This document shows positions 3,908 through 29,166 of a DNA stretch of 64,000 nt, piece by piece. The stretch's first letter is position 1. Each line of letters opens with the position of its first letter. The translations under genes and the position numbers were made by a program. The notes beneath the pieces were generated by a model. It was not told the DNA's origin. It saw only the letters and a list, made by a program, of their open reading frames with translations, and did no database searches. Source of the stretch: Phycisphaerae bacterium (GTDB taxonomy: Bacteria > Planctomycetota > Phycisphaerae > UBA1845); assembly GCA_029260235.1 (NCBI GenBank), contig JAJDDP010000100.1:1-64000 (forward strand), given 5' to 3'.

Positions 3908-5029
3908 CTACGACTTCAAACGGTCGGGGTTCAGGCCTTTGAGTTCATCAATGACGAATTCCCCGTCTTTGCGGATGAGCTTGTCATCGAAGTAGATTTC
4001 GCCACCGCCGTACTCGGGGGTTTGAATGTTGACCATGTCCCAGTGGACGGTCGAGCGGTTCCCATTGTCGGCATCGTCCTCGTAGGCGGCGCCGGGCGTA
4101 AAGTGGAACGATCCGGCAATTTTTTCATCGAACAGGATATCCAGCATCGGCTTGGTGATGTAGGGGTTAAAACCGATGGCAAACTCACCGACATAGCGGG
4201 CACCCTCGTCTGAATCCAGCACTTTGTTGAGATGATCGGTATCCGTGCTGCTAGCTTTGATGATTTTGCCGTCCTTGAACTCCAGGCGGATGTTGTCATG
4301 CACTACCCCCTGGTAGAGTGTAGTCGCATTGTGGGCGATCACCCCGTTGACGCTGTCGCGCACCGGGGCGGTGAAGACCTCGCCATCGGGGATGTTCAGC
4401 TTCCCGTCACAGGGAACTGCTGGGATGCCCTTGATGGAGAAGGCCAATTCAGTGCCAGGCCCGATCAGCTTCACGCGGTCCGTTTTCTCCATCAAGTCTG
4501 CCAGCGGCTGCATCGCCTTGGCCATCTTGGCGTAGTCCATGGTGCATACGTCAAAAAAGAAATCCTCAAACGCGTCGGTGCTCATCCGCGCCGACTGAGC
4601 CATAGACGGCGAAGGATAACGCAGCACGACCCAGCGTGTCTTGCGAACGCGGATATCGCCGTGGACAGGCCTCCACCAGATCGACTGGTAGAGCTTCATC
4701 TTGTCGTCGGGAACATCGGACAGTTCAGCCACATTAGTGCTTCCCCGCACACCGATGTAAGCCTGCACCTGTTTCATGCGATGGGCTTCGCAGTCGGCGA
4801 TGAGCTGCATGTGATCTTCGGTAGCGTTTTGGAGTAACGAGCGAAGCACTTGATTGCTCTTGATGGTGACCAAGGGATTCGCCCCAGCCTCCCGGGCAAG
4901 CCGAACCAGCTCAACCGTAATTTCCGCCGGGACGTCAATAGCTTCGATGAGCACGTTTTCGCCGGGCTTCATCTCGGTCGAATAGTTGATCAGCACGTCG
5001 GCAAGCTTGGTGACACGAGGGTCAAACAT
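3908..5029 (-). CDS. M29 family aminopeptidase
   Basis: A cytosolic metallo-aminopeptidase of the M29 (thermophilic aminopeptidase, AmpS/AmpT) family, which removes N-terminal residues from peptides. The 373-residue length is usual for cytosolic members. Family regions can be read in order: the N-terminal PGENVLIEA segment, the DGEVFTAPV and VGEFAIG acidic ligands, and the C-terminal segment with SFHFTPGAAY followed by STVHWD, which supplies the His and Asp ligands of the two-metal centre. AGGAG stands six bases before the ATG. It lies 23 bases downstream of the peptidase lipoprotein start on the same strand, so the three genes may share a transcript. Confidence 0.93.
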   Translation of the reverse strand: MFDPRVTKLADVLINYSTEMKPGENVLIEAIDVPAEITVELVRLAREAGANPLVTIKSNQVLRSLLQNATEDHMQLIADCEAHRMKQVQAYIGVRGSTNVAELSDVPDDKMKLYQSIWWRPVHGDIRVRKTRWVVLRYPSPSMAQSARMSTDAFEDFFFDVCTMDYAKMAKAMQPLADLMEKTDRVKLIGPGTELAFSIKGIPAVPCDGKLNIPDGEVFTAPVRDSVNGVIAHNATTLYQGVVHDNIRLEFKDGKIIKASSTDTDHLNKVLDSDEGARYVGEFAIGFNPYITKPMLDILFDEKIAGSFHFTPGAAYEDDADNGNRSTVHWDMVNIQTPEYGGGEIYFDDKLIRKDGEFVIDELKGLNPDRLKS

Positions 5030-5075
5030 GGTGAACTCCTAAGGTCTGAGGATGAGGCTTCAATACAGAGCAGTC

Positions 5076-5106
5076 CCCCATCCTTCCGCTGCGCTCAAGG
5101 ATGGGG
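5076..5106. repeat. REP-like palindrome
   Basis: A perfect 10-bp inverted repeat (CCCCATCCTT and AAGGATGGGG) around an 11-base loop, just upstream of the aminopeptidase gene. It has the look of an intergenic repeat element of the REP type rather than a terminator, as there is no T-run. Only one copy is present in this window, so the repeat status is inferred. A second smaller hairpin (GCCCC-AGGT-GGGGC) follows at 5151-5164. Confidence 0.45.
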
Positions 5107-5443
5107 CACCCGTACGGCGCGGCTGCTAGGTTAGCAGAAAAAGACGGTCTGCCCCAGGTGGGGCGGCCATCTTCGAGGAGTCCTGTGCCTAATTCAATGA
5201 GGGAGCTGGTCTGTTCGGTCACAGGCGGCTTGGCGCGCCACGCATCAGACTGCCAAAGCCATTGTGCGACCTAATCAAGTTTCCGGCGGTAGTATCTGCT
5301 CAAGCTGCCCGATCAGCTTGGGCAGGTCGATGCTGACGACGCTCCATAGACTGTCAGCACTGTTACTTCGGCGCAAGCAGGAACGCGACAGGAGACGCGA
5401 GCTCGCCAGTAATCGCCCTGCTCATCCGGGGCACCCTGTCTCC

Positions 5444-20945: not shown

Positions 20946-21545
20946 TCATGGTTGGGCGTTCGGTAGCCATCGCTCAAGATCCTTGCGACGGACAGCCACA
21001 ATGATCCAAATGAACAGCGGAACGATGAAGTGACTTGAGGGGGCTTGCACCAGATCAATGGTAAGCTCGCGATGGACGCTCTCCCAAAACTCTGACGGCT
21101 GAAAAAGAGCGCCGAAGTGGTTGCCCGTAAAGGCGTCGTACAAGAAGAGATACAGCCGAAACGCCACGAATGCGTTGACCAGCACAATCCCCATCAATAG
21201 CTTCTTCCACCGGCGTGCCCAGGGAATCGGCGTGGCTAGCATCAATGCAACAAAGAACGCGGTCGGGTAGTACCCCTTCATCCGGCTGTCGAGTTCCGCG
21301 CTGCCACTGGCTGAGGGTATCGCTCGATTGCGGAGCGTCATCTGAACGTCATTGGGCAGTTTCGAGGCGTCGTATGGCTCGAAGGTGACTTGGCCATTCG
21401 ATCCGAATGAAGAAAAGAGCAGCGTCGCCCCGACTCGAAAACAAGCGGCGTACGCTTGGCGGGTCCCAGGCCAAGGATAGATCAGCAGACCGTAGAGCAG
21501 CACCAACCGAAGAAAGAAGAGGAGCAGTGGCTTGGCCCTGTTCAT
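20946..21545 (-). CDS. Cys-less exosortase-like membrane protein
   Basis: A 199-residue polytopic protein with an N-terminal membrane segment (LLLFFLRLVLLYGLLIYPW) and three more near the C-terminus. Its segment YYPTAFFVALMLATPIPWAR aligns with DPTALFVAAVLATPVGIGR of the gene immediately upstream, and Arg130 aligns with that protein's candidate active-site Arg155. The catalytic Cys position is Met here (SRMKGYYP against RRGCDAIDP); His172 may match the active-site His. It is therefore probably an inactive paralogue or an exosortase-associated partner, similar in concept to the membrane protein encoded next to some XrtH-type exosortases. The track start at 21737 lies in the upstream gene; the ATG at 21545 is taken instead. 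Confidence 0.7.
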   Translation of the reverse strand: MNRAKPLLLFFLRLVLLYGLLIYPWPGTRQAYAACFRVGATLLFSSFGSNGQVTFEPYDASKLPNDVQMTLRNRAIPSASGSAELDSRMKGYYPTAFFVALMLATPIPWARRWKKLLMGIVLVNAFVAFRLYLFLYDAFTGNHFGALFQPSEFWESVHRELTIDLVQAPSSHFIVPLFIWIIVAVRRKDLERWLPNAQP

Positions 21546-21603
21546 GGAAATGCTCCGCGGTTGACGTGTCGGGTCAAGGCAGGGCGACAAGTGCCATCGA
21601 TGG

Positions 21604-22245
21604 CTATGCCGCAGCCGTGGGCGCCGCTTTCGGGATGGGCGGCATTGGTTTTGTCGCCCATAACGCCCAACCAATCCACAGTACGAGTGACAGACAGATA
21701 AACAGTCCTTGCCAAACCTCAAGATGCATGAGGTCAAATGCCTTTGGATAGTGCGCTTTGGTCAGGAAGAGCGTGATGATCCGAATCAGATTGATCAAGG
21801 CCAACGCCAGTGTGCCGCCTAGCGCGCCGACGATCTTTCGGCCAATTCCCACCGGGGTTGCCAAGACCGCAGCGACGAACAAAGCAGTGGGGTCGATGGC
21901 ATCGCAACCGCGACGAATCTCCACAGCCGTAGTCTTCGACGCGAGCGTGTGGTCTTTGGCGGTGACGTCGCCACCAAACAAGTTAAGGATGCCAGCTGAT
22001 AGGTCCGTGTTCAGCCGCAGGTAGGCAGGGAATACCCGCTCCTGCAAAACAGAGAGAGTCATGGCTGCGTAGAACACGCCCATGAAGACGCCGAAGAGGA
22101 CGACAAACTGCCAAACGGGTTTGTTCGATGGGCTGGATTTTACAGGCTTCGCGGCTGACTCGGTTGGCGCAGCAATGCTATCGCGTTTGACCGCATCCTG
22201 TGCAGGAGACTTGGTCTTGCCGTGTTTCTTTCCGCCCGTAGCCAT
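21604..22245 (-). CDS. Exosortase/archaeosortase family protein
   Basis: A 213-residue polytopic protein of the exosortase/archaeosortase superfamily, which are integral membrane transpeptidase-like enzymes that process C-terminal sorting signals of exported proteins. The expected triad is readable: Cys114 in RRGCDAI, Arg155 in NLIRIITLF, His174 in LMHLEVWQG, spread over the last membrane segments. A basic, Lys/Ala/Pro-rich N-terminal tail of about 40 residues precedes the first membrane segment. I use the ATG at 22245 with an AGGAG 11 bases upstream; the track starts at 22356. No PEP-CTERM or similar substrate was seen in the window. A Cys-less paralogue follows 58 bases downstream. Confidence 0.82.
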   Translation of the reverse strand: MATGGKKHGKTKSPAQDAVKRDSIAAPTESAAKPVKSSPSNKPVWQFVVLFGVFMGVFYAAMTLSVLQERVFPAYLRLNTDLSAGILNLFGGDVTAKDHTLASKTTAVEIRRGCDAIDPTALFVAAVLATPVGIGRKIVGALGGTLALALINLIRIITLFLTKAHYPKAFDLMHLEVWQGLFICLSLVLWIGWALWATKPMPPIPKAAPTAAA

Positions 22246-23586: not shown

Positions 23587-25518
23587 ATGGATCGCCGATC
23601 TCAATTCCCCGACCATTACCTAGAAGAGCGGCCCGCGCTGCGTAAGCCTTGGCGGATGGGCATCTGGTTGTGCATGCCTGCTCTGATTGCGATTGCCTTC
23701 GGGTTCTTGGCATCGTCAGGTGTGCTCGATTGGCTGGAATTCAAGAGTATCGATATCCGCTTTCAGCGCCGGGGAGTGCTGGTAACCGATCCGCGCATCG
23801 TGGTCGTTGAAATCGACGAAGTCAGCCGCCGCGAGTTGACCTCTAATCAGCGGCGGTTCGATTTACGGGCCCAGTTGGACGATGCAATCATAGCCTTGGC
23901 TGATGCCGGCGCGGTTGTCATCGGGATCGATGCGTGGCTTTATGGCCGAGGCGATGACACCACCGATTCAGAGTTGGCCGATGCGATTAGAGAAGCAAAT
24001 GTTGTCTTGGCGAGAACCTACTCCGCTGGCCTGAATATCAAACCAGCCGATATATTCATCGAAGCTGAGGCCTTGCAAGGTGTCGTCAATGTCCGGCCCG
24101 ACGCCGATGGTGTGCTGCGCCGAATCCCAACCCACCCGAACTTGGGGATGGCTGACATTCCCGGCGCCGAGCAGATTCCGCACTTCGCGTTCGTCTTAGC
24201 CTGGATGCTGCTGGCTGAGGAAGAGTATGCCGCAGGTCGCGAACCCGAACCCGCTGATTTTAGTCAGGCTGATCGTGTCGCTCTGATGGGCCGAACTGTT
24301 GAGTACGGACGTTTGCTGAATTTCGCTGCCGGTCCTGGTGAGGGATTTCATACAACCACGCTTGCCGACTTAATCAAGGGTCGGTTTGATTCTGCACCCA
24401 TCGACGGGGCAGCAGTCTTGATCGGTGAAGCCCGTTCCATTCAAGATCAATTGCGGATGCCGCTATCGGATCGACTTTGGCCCGGAGTGTACTACCACGC
24501 CAATGTGTTGGACCAGATCTTGCAAGATAGGCCGCTGCGCGACTGGCCTCATAGGCTCAATGCGGTTGCTTTGCTTGCCGCGGTTGTATCAGCCATCGCG
24601 GGTTGGTACTTCTGGTTCTTGCAACCCTGGTGGGAGCGGCGAGCCGGTTGGTTGGGGATGGTGGCCTACTTCGCCTTGGGGGCCGCCGTCTTCGTGGGTG
24701 GCTGGTGGTATGCCTGCGAACGTGCATTTCAGTCGGGCATCGTGCTGCCGATGGCTGCGCCTATGTTGGGGATAGCGGCCGCGATGTTATCAGGCTTAGC
24801 TGTTCAAGCCTTGATTACCATCATCAGCGCCCGACGCATTGCCCAGCGAAGTCGTCAGATCGAATCGTTGTTTGGCCGATCCGTGTCGCACCAAGTGCTC
24901 GAAGCCATCAAGCAGGATCCACAGCATATCGCTCGGACCGAACTGCATGAGGTGACCGTGCTGTTCTGCGATATTCGAGGGTTCACCTCGGTCTCGACCA
25001 AGCTGTCGCCCGACCAAGTCGCCCAGATGCTAAATGAGTATTTTGATGCCATCACCCAGGCCGTGTTTGCGAATGATGGATTTATCGACAAATTCGTGGG
25101 GGATGAGCTGATGGCTGTCTTTGGTGTTCCCCTTCCCCAACCCGATCATGTGCTCAGGGCGACGCGATCTGCACTAGCCATCAAACAAGAACTGGCTGAC
25201 CTGAACAAGCGGCGCATCGGCCGCGGAGAGACGCCGCTGGATTGTGGCGTCGGCGTCCATTGCGGCGAGGTAGCAGCCGGTCACATCGGCACGGCTGAGC
25301 GGGCCAACTACACGGTGGTCGGCGACACGGTCAACATGGCTGCCCGCATCGAAGGCTTGACCAAGGACGGAGAAATCTTGATCAGCCAAGAAGTCTACGA
25401 GAAACTTGAAGGAGCAATCCCCGCCCGTTCGTGGCAGACCGTAACACTCCGAGGCAGTGATCGCGAACATCGGCTTTACGAGGTGGTCCAAAGCGCCAAC
25501 ATCGGCAATCGTGCTTGA
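23587..25518 (+). CDS. CHASE2-domain adenylate/guanylate cyclase
   Basis: A 643-residue membrane cyclase. An N-terminal membrane segment is followed by an extracytoplasmic CHASE2 sensor (about residues 45-330), three further membrane segments (330-420), a short coiled linker and a class III nucleotide cyclase domain (about 460-630). Catalytic features are visible: LFCDIRGFTS with the metal Asp, DKFVGDELMAVFG with the purine-contacting Lys, and VVGDTVNMAARIEG with the Asn/Arg transition-state residues, all consistent with adenylate cyclase. The track starts at 23518 inside the LPP20-like gene; I use the ATG at 23587, though a GTG at 23569 has a better-placed AGAGG. The signal sensed is unknown. 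Confidence 0.92.
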   Translation: MDRRSQFPDHYLEERPALRKPWRMGIWLCMPALIAIAFGFLASSGVLDWLEFKSIDIRFQRRGVLVTDPRIVVVEIDEVSRRELTSNQRRFDLRAQLDDAIIALADAGAVVIGIDAWLYGRGDDTTDSELADAIREANVVLARTYSAGLNIKPADIFIEAEALQGVVNVRPDADGVLRRIPTHPNLGMADIPGAEQIPHFAFVLAWMLLAEEEYAAGREPEPADFSQADRVALMGRTVEYGRLLNFAAGPGEGFHTTTLADLIKGRFDSAPIDGAAVLIGEARSIQDQLRMPLSDRLWPGVYYHANVLDQILQDRPLRDWPHRLNAVALLAAVVSAIAGWYFWFLQPWWERRAGWLGMVAYFALGAAVFVGGWWYACERAFQSGIVLPMAAPMLGIAAAMLSGLAVQALITIISARRIAQRSRQIESLFGRSVSHQVLEAIKQDPQHIARTELHEVTVLFCDIRGFTSVSTKLSPDQVAQMLNEYFDAITQAVFANDGFIDKFVGDELMAVFGVPLPQPDHVLRATRSALAIKQELADLNKRRIGRGETPLDCGVGVHCGEVAAGHIGTAERANYTVVGDTVNMAARIEGLTKDGEILISQEVYEKLEGAIPARSWQTVTLRGSDREHRLYEVVQSANIGNRA

Positions 25519-25541: not shown

Positions 25542-26444
25542 TCAAGTGGGCAAATCAGGCGGGTCGTCGTCTTCTTGCGTGCCGGAAAAGAGGCGATTGG
25601 TTGGTTGCTCGGGGTCACCATCGACGTCCGCGAATGCTCCGCTTGGGCGGATGCGATAGCCCAATGCTTCGGGCGTGATGACTTCGCCGTGGCCATCACA
25701 GAAAATCACGTTGGTCTTTTCCTGGTGGCGAGGATCAACCGCGGTCCGTGGGCTTCCAGGATCACCCGTTCCCCGATCCGATGTGGCCGTTAGCCTCGGA
25801 GGGTCGAGGGTCCAGCCGTGGTTGCCCTTGGCGGCCATGTCAGTGCCGTCATTTTGGTAGGGGACGCGTTCATTAGCGGCAACACCGGCTGCTGTACCCA
25901 GGCAGTCGGCCGCAAGAACCGTTCCGGCAAATGATCGGATGCGACTTCGGTTCACCGGGAAGTTGTGGAATTGGCCGCTCGTTTTTCGGGCATTGCCTAG
26001 GAACTGATGATTGTATCCGTAGGCAGCGTTGCGCTCATCGGTCCATTCGGGCACCATGGGACAGGCATAGACGGGACTCGCGTAGTCCTGCCGATCTTCG
26101 CTAGTTTTCGGCTGGTTGAAGGCGAAGATCCCAACCTGCTTGCCCATAGTGGCTACCCAGCGGGGCCGATACTTCATTCCGTTGCCGATCTCGTACCAGT
26201 TGTCGGGATTGCTCTTGCCGCCCGGTTCCTTGGCGTATCGTCCGGGGATACAGATGTCGCTATTCTCGTCGGCGTACATGTGCCAACCGTGTGATAGCTG
26301 CCGAAGATGGGTTAGACAGAGAACGCCCTTGGCTTGGTTGCGGGCATTCTTGAGGCTTGGCAAAAGGATAGCCAGGAGCAGGGCGATGATCGAGACTACC
26401 ACCAGTAATTCAATCAAGGTGAAGGCGGGACGAGGACGACGCAT
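25542..26444 (-). CDS. Prepilin-like protein with H-X9-DG tail
   Basis: A 300-residue type II pseudopilin-like protein. The prepilin leader is classical: RRPRPAFTLIELLVVVSIIALLLAI, cut before Phe by the prepilin peptidase, followed by the hydrophobic helix. The rest is the DUF1559-like globular region common in planctomycetes, ending in the H-X9-DG motif (RHQEKTNVIFCDG). Such proteins are present in many copies per planctomycete genome and are presumed to assemble with a GspE-type ATPase such as the one at 41024. GGAG is eight bases upstream of the ATG. It lies 37 bases from a folD remnant. Confidence 0.9.
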   Translation of the reverse strand: MRRPRPAFTLIELLVVVSIIALLLAILLPSLKNARNQAKGVLCLTHLRQLSHGWHMYADENSDICIPGRYAKEPGGKSNPDNWYEIGNGMKYRPRWVATMGKQVGIFAFNQPKTSEDRQDYASPVYACPMVPEWTDERNAAYGYNHQFLGNARKTSGQFHNFPVNRSRIRSFAGTVLAADCLGTAAGVAANERVPYQNDGTDMAAKGNHGWTLDPPRLTATSDRGTGDPGSPRTAVDPRHQEKTNVIFCDGHGEVITPEALGYRIRPSGAFADVDGDPEQPTNRLFSGTQEDDDPPDLPT

Positions 26445-26481: not shown

Positions 26482-26592
26482 TGCTACAGTTTGACACCTT
26501 CAAGGGCAGCGGCTGCGTCGGCGGTTTGATCGATGAGGGTCGCGATAGTCATGGGGCCTACCCCGCCAGGGACCGGGGTGATGAGCGAAGCG
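26482..26592 (-). pseudogene. folD 3' remnant
   Basis: A 111-base stretch that repeats the end of the folD gene at 28301-28411 with six mismatches and no gaps. On the minus strand it encodes the last 36 residues of FolD and its stop. All six differences fall at third codon positions and are synonymous. Similarity stops abruptly at 26592, and a TGA stands in frame five codons further upstream, so no complete second folD exists here. It is best explained as what is left of a second, once functional or imported, folD copy. Confidence 0.85.
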
Positions 26593-26682
26593 CGCGGGGA
26601 AGCCGATCATCGGTCTCACTATCTGGGCAGCTTCTCGCAAGAGGGTCGCGAAAAGGGAAGAACATTTTGACCTACCAACAGA

Positions 26683-27768: not shown

Positions 27769-28302
27769 TTCCAGTTCCTCCTCAATAGTTATTCAAGATA
27801 TGGCGCATGACCTAGGCCCACACATCTGCTGAGATGCTAGACGCCCCATCTGCATAGTGCAACTGGTGCCCTATCCGGAACACCTAGCGGGTATTGCCCA
27901 TTCACGAGATTGCAACCAGTGAGCATGGCCGAACGAACCGCTGGATTGAACCAAACAACCCTTTGTTGCGGTGATTTATTCCTGCGTGGCGGATCCATTG
28001 TTGCAGTTTTGCCCAGAAGGCGAGGGGAAAGCAATTTCGTCCCGTTTCGGAACAGTTTGGGCAACATTGCGTGCTGAGTGCTGCTTGCAATTGCGCGATT
28101 CTCACAACACCGTGATGGCTTGTTTCGGCAGTCACCCACCGGATGCGGCCAGAGGCTGCGATGTGGTTCAGCCCTTCGCCTTGGCGCAGGTACCGGATTT
28201 GCAAGTGCAATCTGCCGATTAGCATGAACTTGTTATCGCGCTCGGGAAAACCCTGTTGAGAAAACAAGAGATCCGGGCTTAAGTGCGCCGTCGGAAAGGA
28301 TG
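27769..28302. other. Gene-free stretch between secreted gene and folD
   Basis: About 530 bases with no convincing gene. The ORFs reported here overlap on both strands and lack family-like features. Together with the remnant at 26482 this region and the exported-protein gene look like sequence lying between two folD copies. No terminator-like hairpin is obvious. Confidence 0.45.
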
Positions 28303-29166
28303 CTACAGTTTGACACCTTCAAGGGCAGCGGCTGCGTCGGCGGTCTGATCGATGAGCGTGGCGATGGTCATGGGGCCGACCCCGCCCGGGACCGGGGTGA
28401 TGAGCGAAGCGTGTTGCCTAGCCGGTTCAAAATCAACGTCGCCAAGGTTGCCCTCGTTATAGCCGGCGTCAATGACGACCGCCCCGGGTTTGATCCAATC
28501 ACCCTGAACGAATCGCGGCTTACCGACCGCAGCCACCACAAGGTCAGCCTGGGCTACGATCTCGGGCAGGTTGCGGGTTCGAGAATGACACACCGTGACC
28601 GTGGCGTGTGCATTGATCAGCATAGCTGCCATCGGTTTACCCAGGATAGGACTTCGGCCAATGACGACCGCGCTAGTGCCGGAAAGCGGCACTTCGTACT
28701 CTGCAAGCAGTCGCATGATGCCAGCCGGTGTACACGATCCAAAGGCAGGCATGCCCAGCATGACCCGTCCGAGTGTTCCAGCCGTCACGCCATCAACATC
28801 TTTGGTTACCGGGATGGCTTCAAACGCCGCCCGTTCGTTAACGCCATCGGGCACCGGATGTTGCAACAGAATCCCATGGATGGACGAATCTTGGCCAAGA
28901 TTGGTGATCTGTTCGATGAGTTGATCGGTCGATGTCTCCGCCGACATCTCAATGGCCACCGATTTGACGCCCGCCGCTTGGCAGCGTTTTTGCTTCATCC
29001 GAACGTACGTGGTGCTGGCAGGGTCGCTGCCGACAAGCACAGTGGCCAGCGCGGGCGTGACGCTGACGGTCAGTTGAATCTTCTCTACCTTGGCGGCTGC
29101 CTGCTTCAGGACTTTCTTAGCCAGGGCAGCGCCGTCCATCAGTTTGTTTGTGTCGGATGTTGTCAT
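28303..29166 (-). CDS. folD: Methylenetetrahydrofolate dehydrogenase/cyclohydrolase
   Basis: Bifunctional cytosolic enzyme of one-carbon metabolism that oxidises 5,10-methylene-THF with NADP+ and hydrolyses the methenyl intermediate to 10-formyl-THF. Of 287 residues, the key regions are STTYVRMKQK (catalytic Tyr and Lys), GILLQHPVP in place of the usual GxLVQLPLP, the NADP-binding VIGRSPILGKP, and the C-terminal [11 protein letters not shown]. The ATG at 29166 follows GAGGG. It lies six bases after the valS stop on the same strand, so the two are probably transcribed together. A decayed second copy of its end lies at 26482-26592. Confidence 0.97.
   Translation of the reverse strand: MTTSDTNKLMDGAALAKKVLKQAAAKVEKIQLTVSVTPALATVLVGSDPASTTYVRMKQKRCQAAGVKSVAIEMSAETSTDQLIEQITNLGQDSSIHGILLQHPVPDGVNERAAFEAIPVTKDVDGVTAGTLGRVMLGMPAFGSCTPAGIMRLLAEYEVPLSGTSAVVIGRSPILGKPMAAMLINAHATVTVCHSRTRNLPEIVAQADLVVAAVGKPRFVQGDWIKPGAVVIDAGYNEGNLGDVDFEPARQHASLITPVPGGVGPMTIATLIDQTADAAAALEGVKL

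Follow-up and report, generated by a model that had tools for sequence, protein, structure and literature searches.

The window, the 64,000-nucleotide stretch of DNA from a Phycisphaerae bacterium that was analysed, contains a pair of genes that most probably belongs to a protein-sorting system of the XrtH type. In this system, an exosortase with the catalytic residue Cys114 would process IPTL-CTERM substrates, and a non-catalytic partner is most likely bound to the enzyme as a heterodimer. We assign this reading a probability of about 85%. The most interesting part of the finding is the exosortase ancestry of the partner. The pair is arranged as follows:

21604..22245, minus strand: gene of the XrtH-type exosortase (P0001), 213 residues, ATG start, with RRGCDAI (Cys114), INLIRI (Arg155) and MHLEVWQ (His174)
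21546..21603, minus strand: intergenic gap of 58 nucleotides, read directly from the sequence
20946..21545, minus strand: gene of the XrtH-associated partner (P0002), 199 residues, ATG start, an apparently degenerate exosortase paralogue with Met89 at the position of the Cys

The two genes are tandem and co-directional, with the exosortase gene upstream and the partner gene downstream. Direct reading of the sequence places a suitably spaced GGAG just 5′ of the partner ATG, inside the intergenic gap, and the genes read as a two-gene operon. The flanking genes on either side are likely encoded on the plus strand, and the pair is therefore an isolated operon. The reading frames of the exosortase and the partner overlap or almost touch in most relatives, as opposed to their separation by 58 nucleotides in the window.

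Near the exosortase pair, positions 23596-25518 of the window (plus strand) encode a membrane sensor cyclase with a CHASE2 domain and an adenylate/guanylate cyclase catalytic domain. The protein encoded at positions 25542-26444 (minus strand) carries the N-terminal prepilin methylation motif PF07963 and recalls the large pseudopilin-like families of planctomycetes. The window also contains a 124-nucleotide direct repeat, the copies of which, at positions 26482-26605 and 28301-28424, are 90% identical. A folD-like open reading frame (28303-29166, minus strand) overlaps at its 3′ end with the second copy, and the first is detached, 1.8 kb from the second.

Judged by its matches to family models, P0001 belongs to the XrtH-type exosortases. 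It passed the exosortase/archaeosortase signature TIGR04178 with 42.6 bits (cut-off 23). Its best subfamily model was TIGR04177 (XrtH), with a score of 83.6 bits that is 2.4 bits short of the cut-off of 86, and for this reason we call the protein XrtH-type rather than XrtH. The next-best subfamilies, XrtX and XrtM, whose cut-offs are 170 and 125, gave 64 to 65 bits, Pfam PF09721 gave 25.2 bits, just under its cut-off of 25.7, and a homologue of P0001 (L028) cleared the XrtH cut-off with 89.4 bits. The sequence-only reading had assigned the upstream protein to the exosortases from the layout of Cys114, Arg155 and His174, which proved exact and agrees with the model matches. The three residues are invariant in all 14 aligned homologues, which come from Planctomycetota, Bacteroidota and Acidobacteria, and P0001 thus has, within membrane segments, the conserved Cys, Arg and His (or Arg) of the exosortase/archaeosortase superfamily. 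The layout fits an active enzyme, since Cys173, Arg214 and Arg253 of the archaeosortase ArtA from Haloferax are described as required for activity (PMC9263693), and P0001 is probably active. The AlphaFold (AF2) model of P0001 has a pLDDT of 86. Searches of the PDB by sequence and by fold with the exosortase and partner as queries returned nothing usable and no solved structure of the family, and a tblastn search against plasmids found no relative.

IPTL-CTERM is the known sorting signal of XrtH. As expected for an XrtH enzyme, such proteins are encoded in the same genome, in which the IPTL-CTERM model (TIGR04174) had 11 matches over the cut-off, located at the extreme C-terminus of proteins. 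The tails are composed of IPTLSEWG, a transmembrane helix and RRR (for example, PIPTLSEWGVIGLTAVLLGAGVWVIRRRQ). The proteins are about 170 to 700 residues long, and most have a signal-peptide-like N-terminal stretch, as read from their open reading frames; contig C5 carries two adjacent ones that are almost identical copies. The contig of the window (C231) holds no IPTL-CTERM or PEP-CTERM match of the genome, and a regular-expression scan of the window open reading frames found no sorting signal followed by a transmembrane segment. These results agree with the earlier view that the window proteins lack a sorting signal and that the substrates must be encoded elsewhere. Of 296 Planctomycetota genomes, five had IPTL-CTERM hits and 11 had hits for XrtH-like enzymes, and all five are within the 11 (Fisher p 2.5e-8). 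The remaining six XrtH-positive genomes had no IPTL-CTERM match at the threshold used; the XrtH matches are weak in five of them and strong in one (G066, 85.5 bits). IPTL-type proteins directly adjoin the gene pair in three other genomes (L033, L035 and L039).

The pairing of the two genes is widely conserved. A small hydrophobic open reading frame is adjacent to XrtH at 13 of the 14 XrtH-model loci in Planctomycetota, being downstream in 12 and upstream in L022, and the locus without an adjacent partner (L026) encodes an 8-TM exosortase and not XrtH. At the more distant of these loci, the adjacent frame was called a partner by its size and hydrophobicity, and weak matches to the XrtH-associated family NF041730 were present in the adjacent frames of L017, L018, L020 and L029. 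In the cross-phylum set, for which genome contigs were scanned with a three-sequence XrtH alignment, a partner was found at all 12 loci with sufficient contig; two of these loci, L034 and L042, lie in the genomes G060 and G205. The gene pair is kept in Bacteroidota and Acidobacteria as well as in Planctomycetota. The distance matrices of the enzyme and partner correlate with an r of 0.966, and none of 10,000 permutations was as high, which is expected because the genes are inherited together and is true of any co-inherited pair.

The best model for P0002 was NF041730 (XrtH_assoc; E 2.1e-4), with a score of 21.1 bits that is under the cut-off of 35. The comparison with the XrtH-associated family that the sequence-only reading had proposed came out in its favour as regards the closest family, with a score short of the cut-off. 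By position, P0002 corresponds to this family, as it is a membrane protein encoded beside xrtH, 58 nucleotides downstream. The NF041730 cut-off was passed in none of the 296 Planctomycetota genomes, although the XrtH genes there have such neighbours. P0002 carries PTAFFVALMLATP, Arg130, and, at the position of the Cys, Met89 within MKGYYPTAFFVALMLATPIPW, and the initial description of a downstream protein that shares the motif and lacks the Cys was accurate.

An alignment of 12 partners, comprising the window partner and 11 orthologues gathered from loci beside XrtH genes, indicates which exosortase features were lost. The catalytic Cys position is occupied by M, C, R, Y, F, I or T, with Cys in one of the 12 sequences. 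The catalytic Arg position contains R in four, K in seven and another residue in one, so that the matching Arg130 noted earlier is present in the window partner and is not a feature of the family. The alignment contains no conserved His, and the catalytic His is missing. The scaffold around the motif is retained (Y-x-P and A-T/S-P-x-x-W); L, L, G and the start Met occupy the columns that never vary, and Y, L, P, A and W are nearly invariant. Because Arg130 is unconserved (R or K) and the catalytic His is missing in the aligned partners, the partner looks like a pseudoenzyme, and P0002 has the appearance of a degenerate exosortase paralogue. In the L033 partner (4582-5235, plus strand), the Cys of an RCDG stretch falls exactly on the catalytic position, yet the His is missing; this protein seems to stand midway from enzyme to pseudoenzyme. 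Some partners end with the SEC-C metal-binding motif (PF02810), with E about 1e-8 in L020:774-1580 (minus strand) and L043:4386-5090 (plus strand) and a weaker match in L022:551-1411 (plus strand); the motif is absent from the window partner.

P0002 could also be an unrelated small membrane protein that travels with xrtH, in which case the shared motif would reflect convergent membrane-protein composition. Comparisons of single sequences are compatible with such an origin, since P0001 and P0002 are 25% identical over a gapped alignment, P0002 has no Pfam match, and none of the exosortase models matched P0002 alone above noise. However, the profile-profile alignment of the partner and XrtH families by hhalign, which sets Met89 opposite Cys114, has a probability of 96.5%, a score of 67.2 and an E of 9.7e-10, whereas reversed profiles scored 20.8 to 20.9 and none of 100 column shuffles exceeded 21.0. 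The score was still 62.9 when the window sequences were dropped from both profiles. The XrtH model was matched individually by eight of the 12 partners (best E 3.4e-5), and the partner profile searched over the 296 Planctomycetota genomes retrieved partners, then XrtH genes from those same genomes, and no other matches. The RCDG retained at the catalytic position of the L033 partner also argues for common descent. The AlphaFold models of P0001 and P0002 (pLDDT 86 and 85), which were compared by element order alone, share the succession of two helices, three short strands and then helices, and the Cys or Met is located in the stretch that links the last strand to the third helix. To see whether the partner is similar to the N-terminal half of a larger exosortase, we compared it by hhalign with the single 8-TM EpsH sequence of the same genome (contig C164); neither half gave a significant match. 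The homology of P0002 to exosortases is thus supported by the profile comparisons, which place the shared motif beyond chance and uphold the initial description of the second gene as a paralogue without the Cys; an unrelated origin is very improbable.

The role of the partner is most likely that of a non-catalytic subunit. Alternatively, the partner might have catalysis of its own and, for example, supply or activate a lipid or sugar acceptor using a different active site. Such a function would suit the presence of R or K at the catalytic Arg position in 11 of the 12 partners and the conservation of the A-T/S-P-x-x-W motif. Furthermore, the maturation by ArtA is described as dependent on separate lipid-pathway enzymes (PMC7157517). 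Nevertheless, the partner alignment shows no conspicuous invariant Cys, His, Ser, Asp or Glu, and the predicted fold of the partner follows that of exosortases and not that of a known transferase, which makes a separate catalytic activity unlikely. With regard to substrates, the genome contains about 29 PEP-CTERM-type matches over the cut-off, and the window exosortase could serve these proteins instead of the IPTL-CTERM proteins. However, the natural partner of the PEP-CTERM proteins is a second exosortase, which is full-length, has eight TM segments and is encoded on contig C164 (L001:1393-2322, plus strand) in a polysaccharide-type locus, downstream of a polysaccharide-export-like gene. This exosortase and the PEP-CTERM-type proteins are a separate system. 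The small enzyme of the window most resembles XrtH, whose presence across genomes IPTL-CTERM follows, so that we find it scarcely credible that the window exosortase serves PEP-CTERM-like proteins.

For the XrtH-type system with IPTL-CTERM substrates and a non-catalytic partner, a sequence of steps may be outlined. The substrates, predicted surface proteins, would be exported via Sec by means of the N-terminal signal peptide and retained by the C-terminal tail with its IPTLSEWG motif, transmembrane helix and arginine cluster. Cys114 of the XrtH-type enzyme, together with Arg155 and His174, would then most likely cut at the motif via a thioester intermediate, and the new C-terminus of the substrate would be passed to a membrane or envelope acceptor. 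The partner is most likely bound to XrtH in a heterodimer, and may stabilise the enzyme or present the substrate tail or the acceptor. The proposed cleavage and transfer chemistry is drawn by analogy from ArtA, for which a model with a thioester and an amine acceptor has been put forward (PMC7157517). We infer a physical complex of the exosortase and partner, a two-subunit enzyme, from the pairing of the genes and their correlated divergence. The sequence-only reading, which had suggested a two-subunit sorting system, was correct on its main points. More tentatively, XrtH-type exosortases may be obligate heterodimers in which an active exosortase is joined to a pseudoenzyme one, the two having originated in an old tandem duplication. 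The NF041730 family would then be a degenerate paralogue throughout, with a Cys in the second subunit in some lineages (L033). We consider this generalisation possible, at somewhat less than even odds.

The pairing of a dead paralogue with the enzyme in at least three phyla makes it testable whether the small exosortase is a heterodimer, and suggests that the exosortase is best studied together with its partner. The current model of the XrtH-associated protein misses the planctomycete members examined.

P0001 belongs to the same superfamily as ArtA of Haloferax volcanii and has counterparts of the Cys and Arg needed for the activity of ArtA, but differs in the third residue, which is a His where ArtA has Arg253. 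ArtA recognises the PGF-CTERM signal, and no tandem paralogue is described for it in the sections of the ArtA literature considered here. With the 8-TM EpsH exosortases of PEP-CTERM systems (TIGR02602, PF09721), a true member of which is encoded on contig C164 of the same genome, P0001 shares the catalytic half; however, about 110 positions at the N-terminal end of the EpsH model have no counterpart in it. The closest similarity is to the system of XrtH (TIGR04177) and IPTL-CTERM (TIGR04174), with which P0001 shares the best-matching subfamily, the small size, the Cys/Arg/His triad, the presence of at least 11 IPTL-CTERM substrates in the genome and the co-occurrence across the phylum, although its score is too low for it to be named XrtH automatically. 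P0002 resembles NF041730 in being best matched by this model, in its position beside xrtH, in its similar length and in an alignment that covers the motif region, but it falls in a branch of planctomycete and Bacteroidota proteins to which the model gives low scores. Here, a protein of the NF041730-like kind was shown by profile comparison to be homologous to exosortases. Because the curated cut-offs were missed, narrowly by the enzyme and clearly by the partner, we refer to the proteins as XrtH-type and XrtH-associated-like. The pair is a divergent example of a known set that comprises XrtH together with its associated protein and the IPTL-CTERM substrates.
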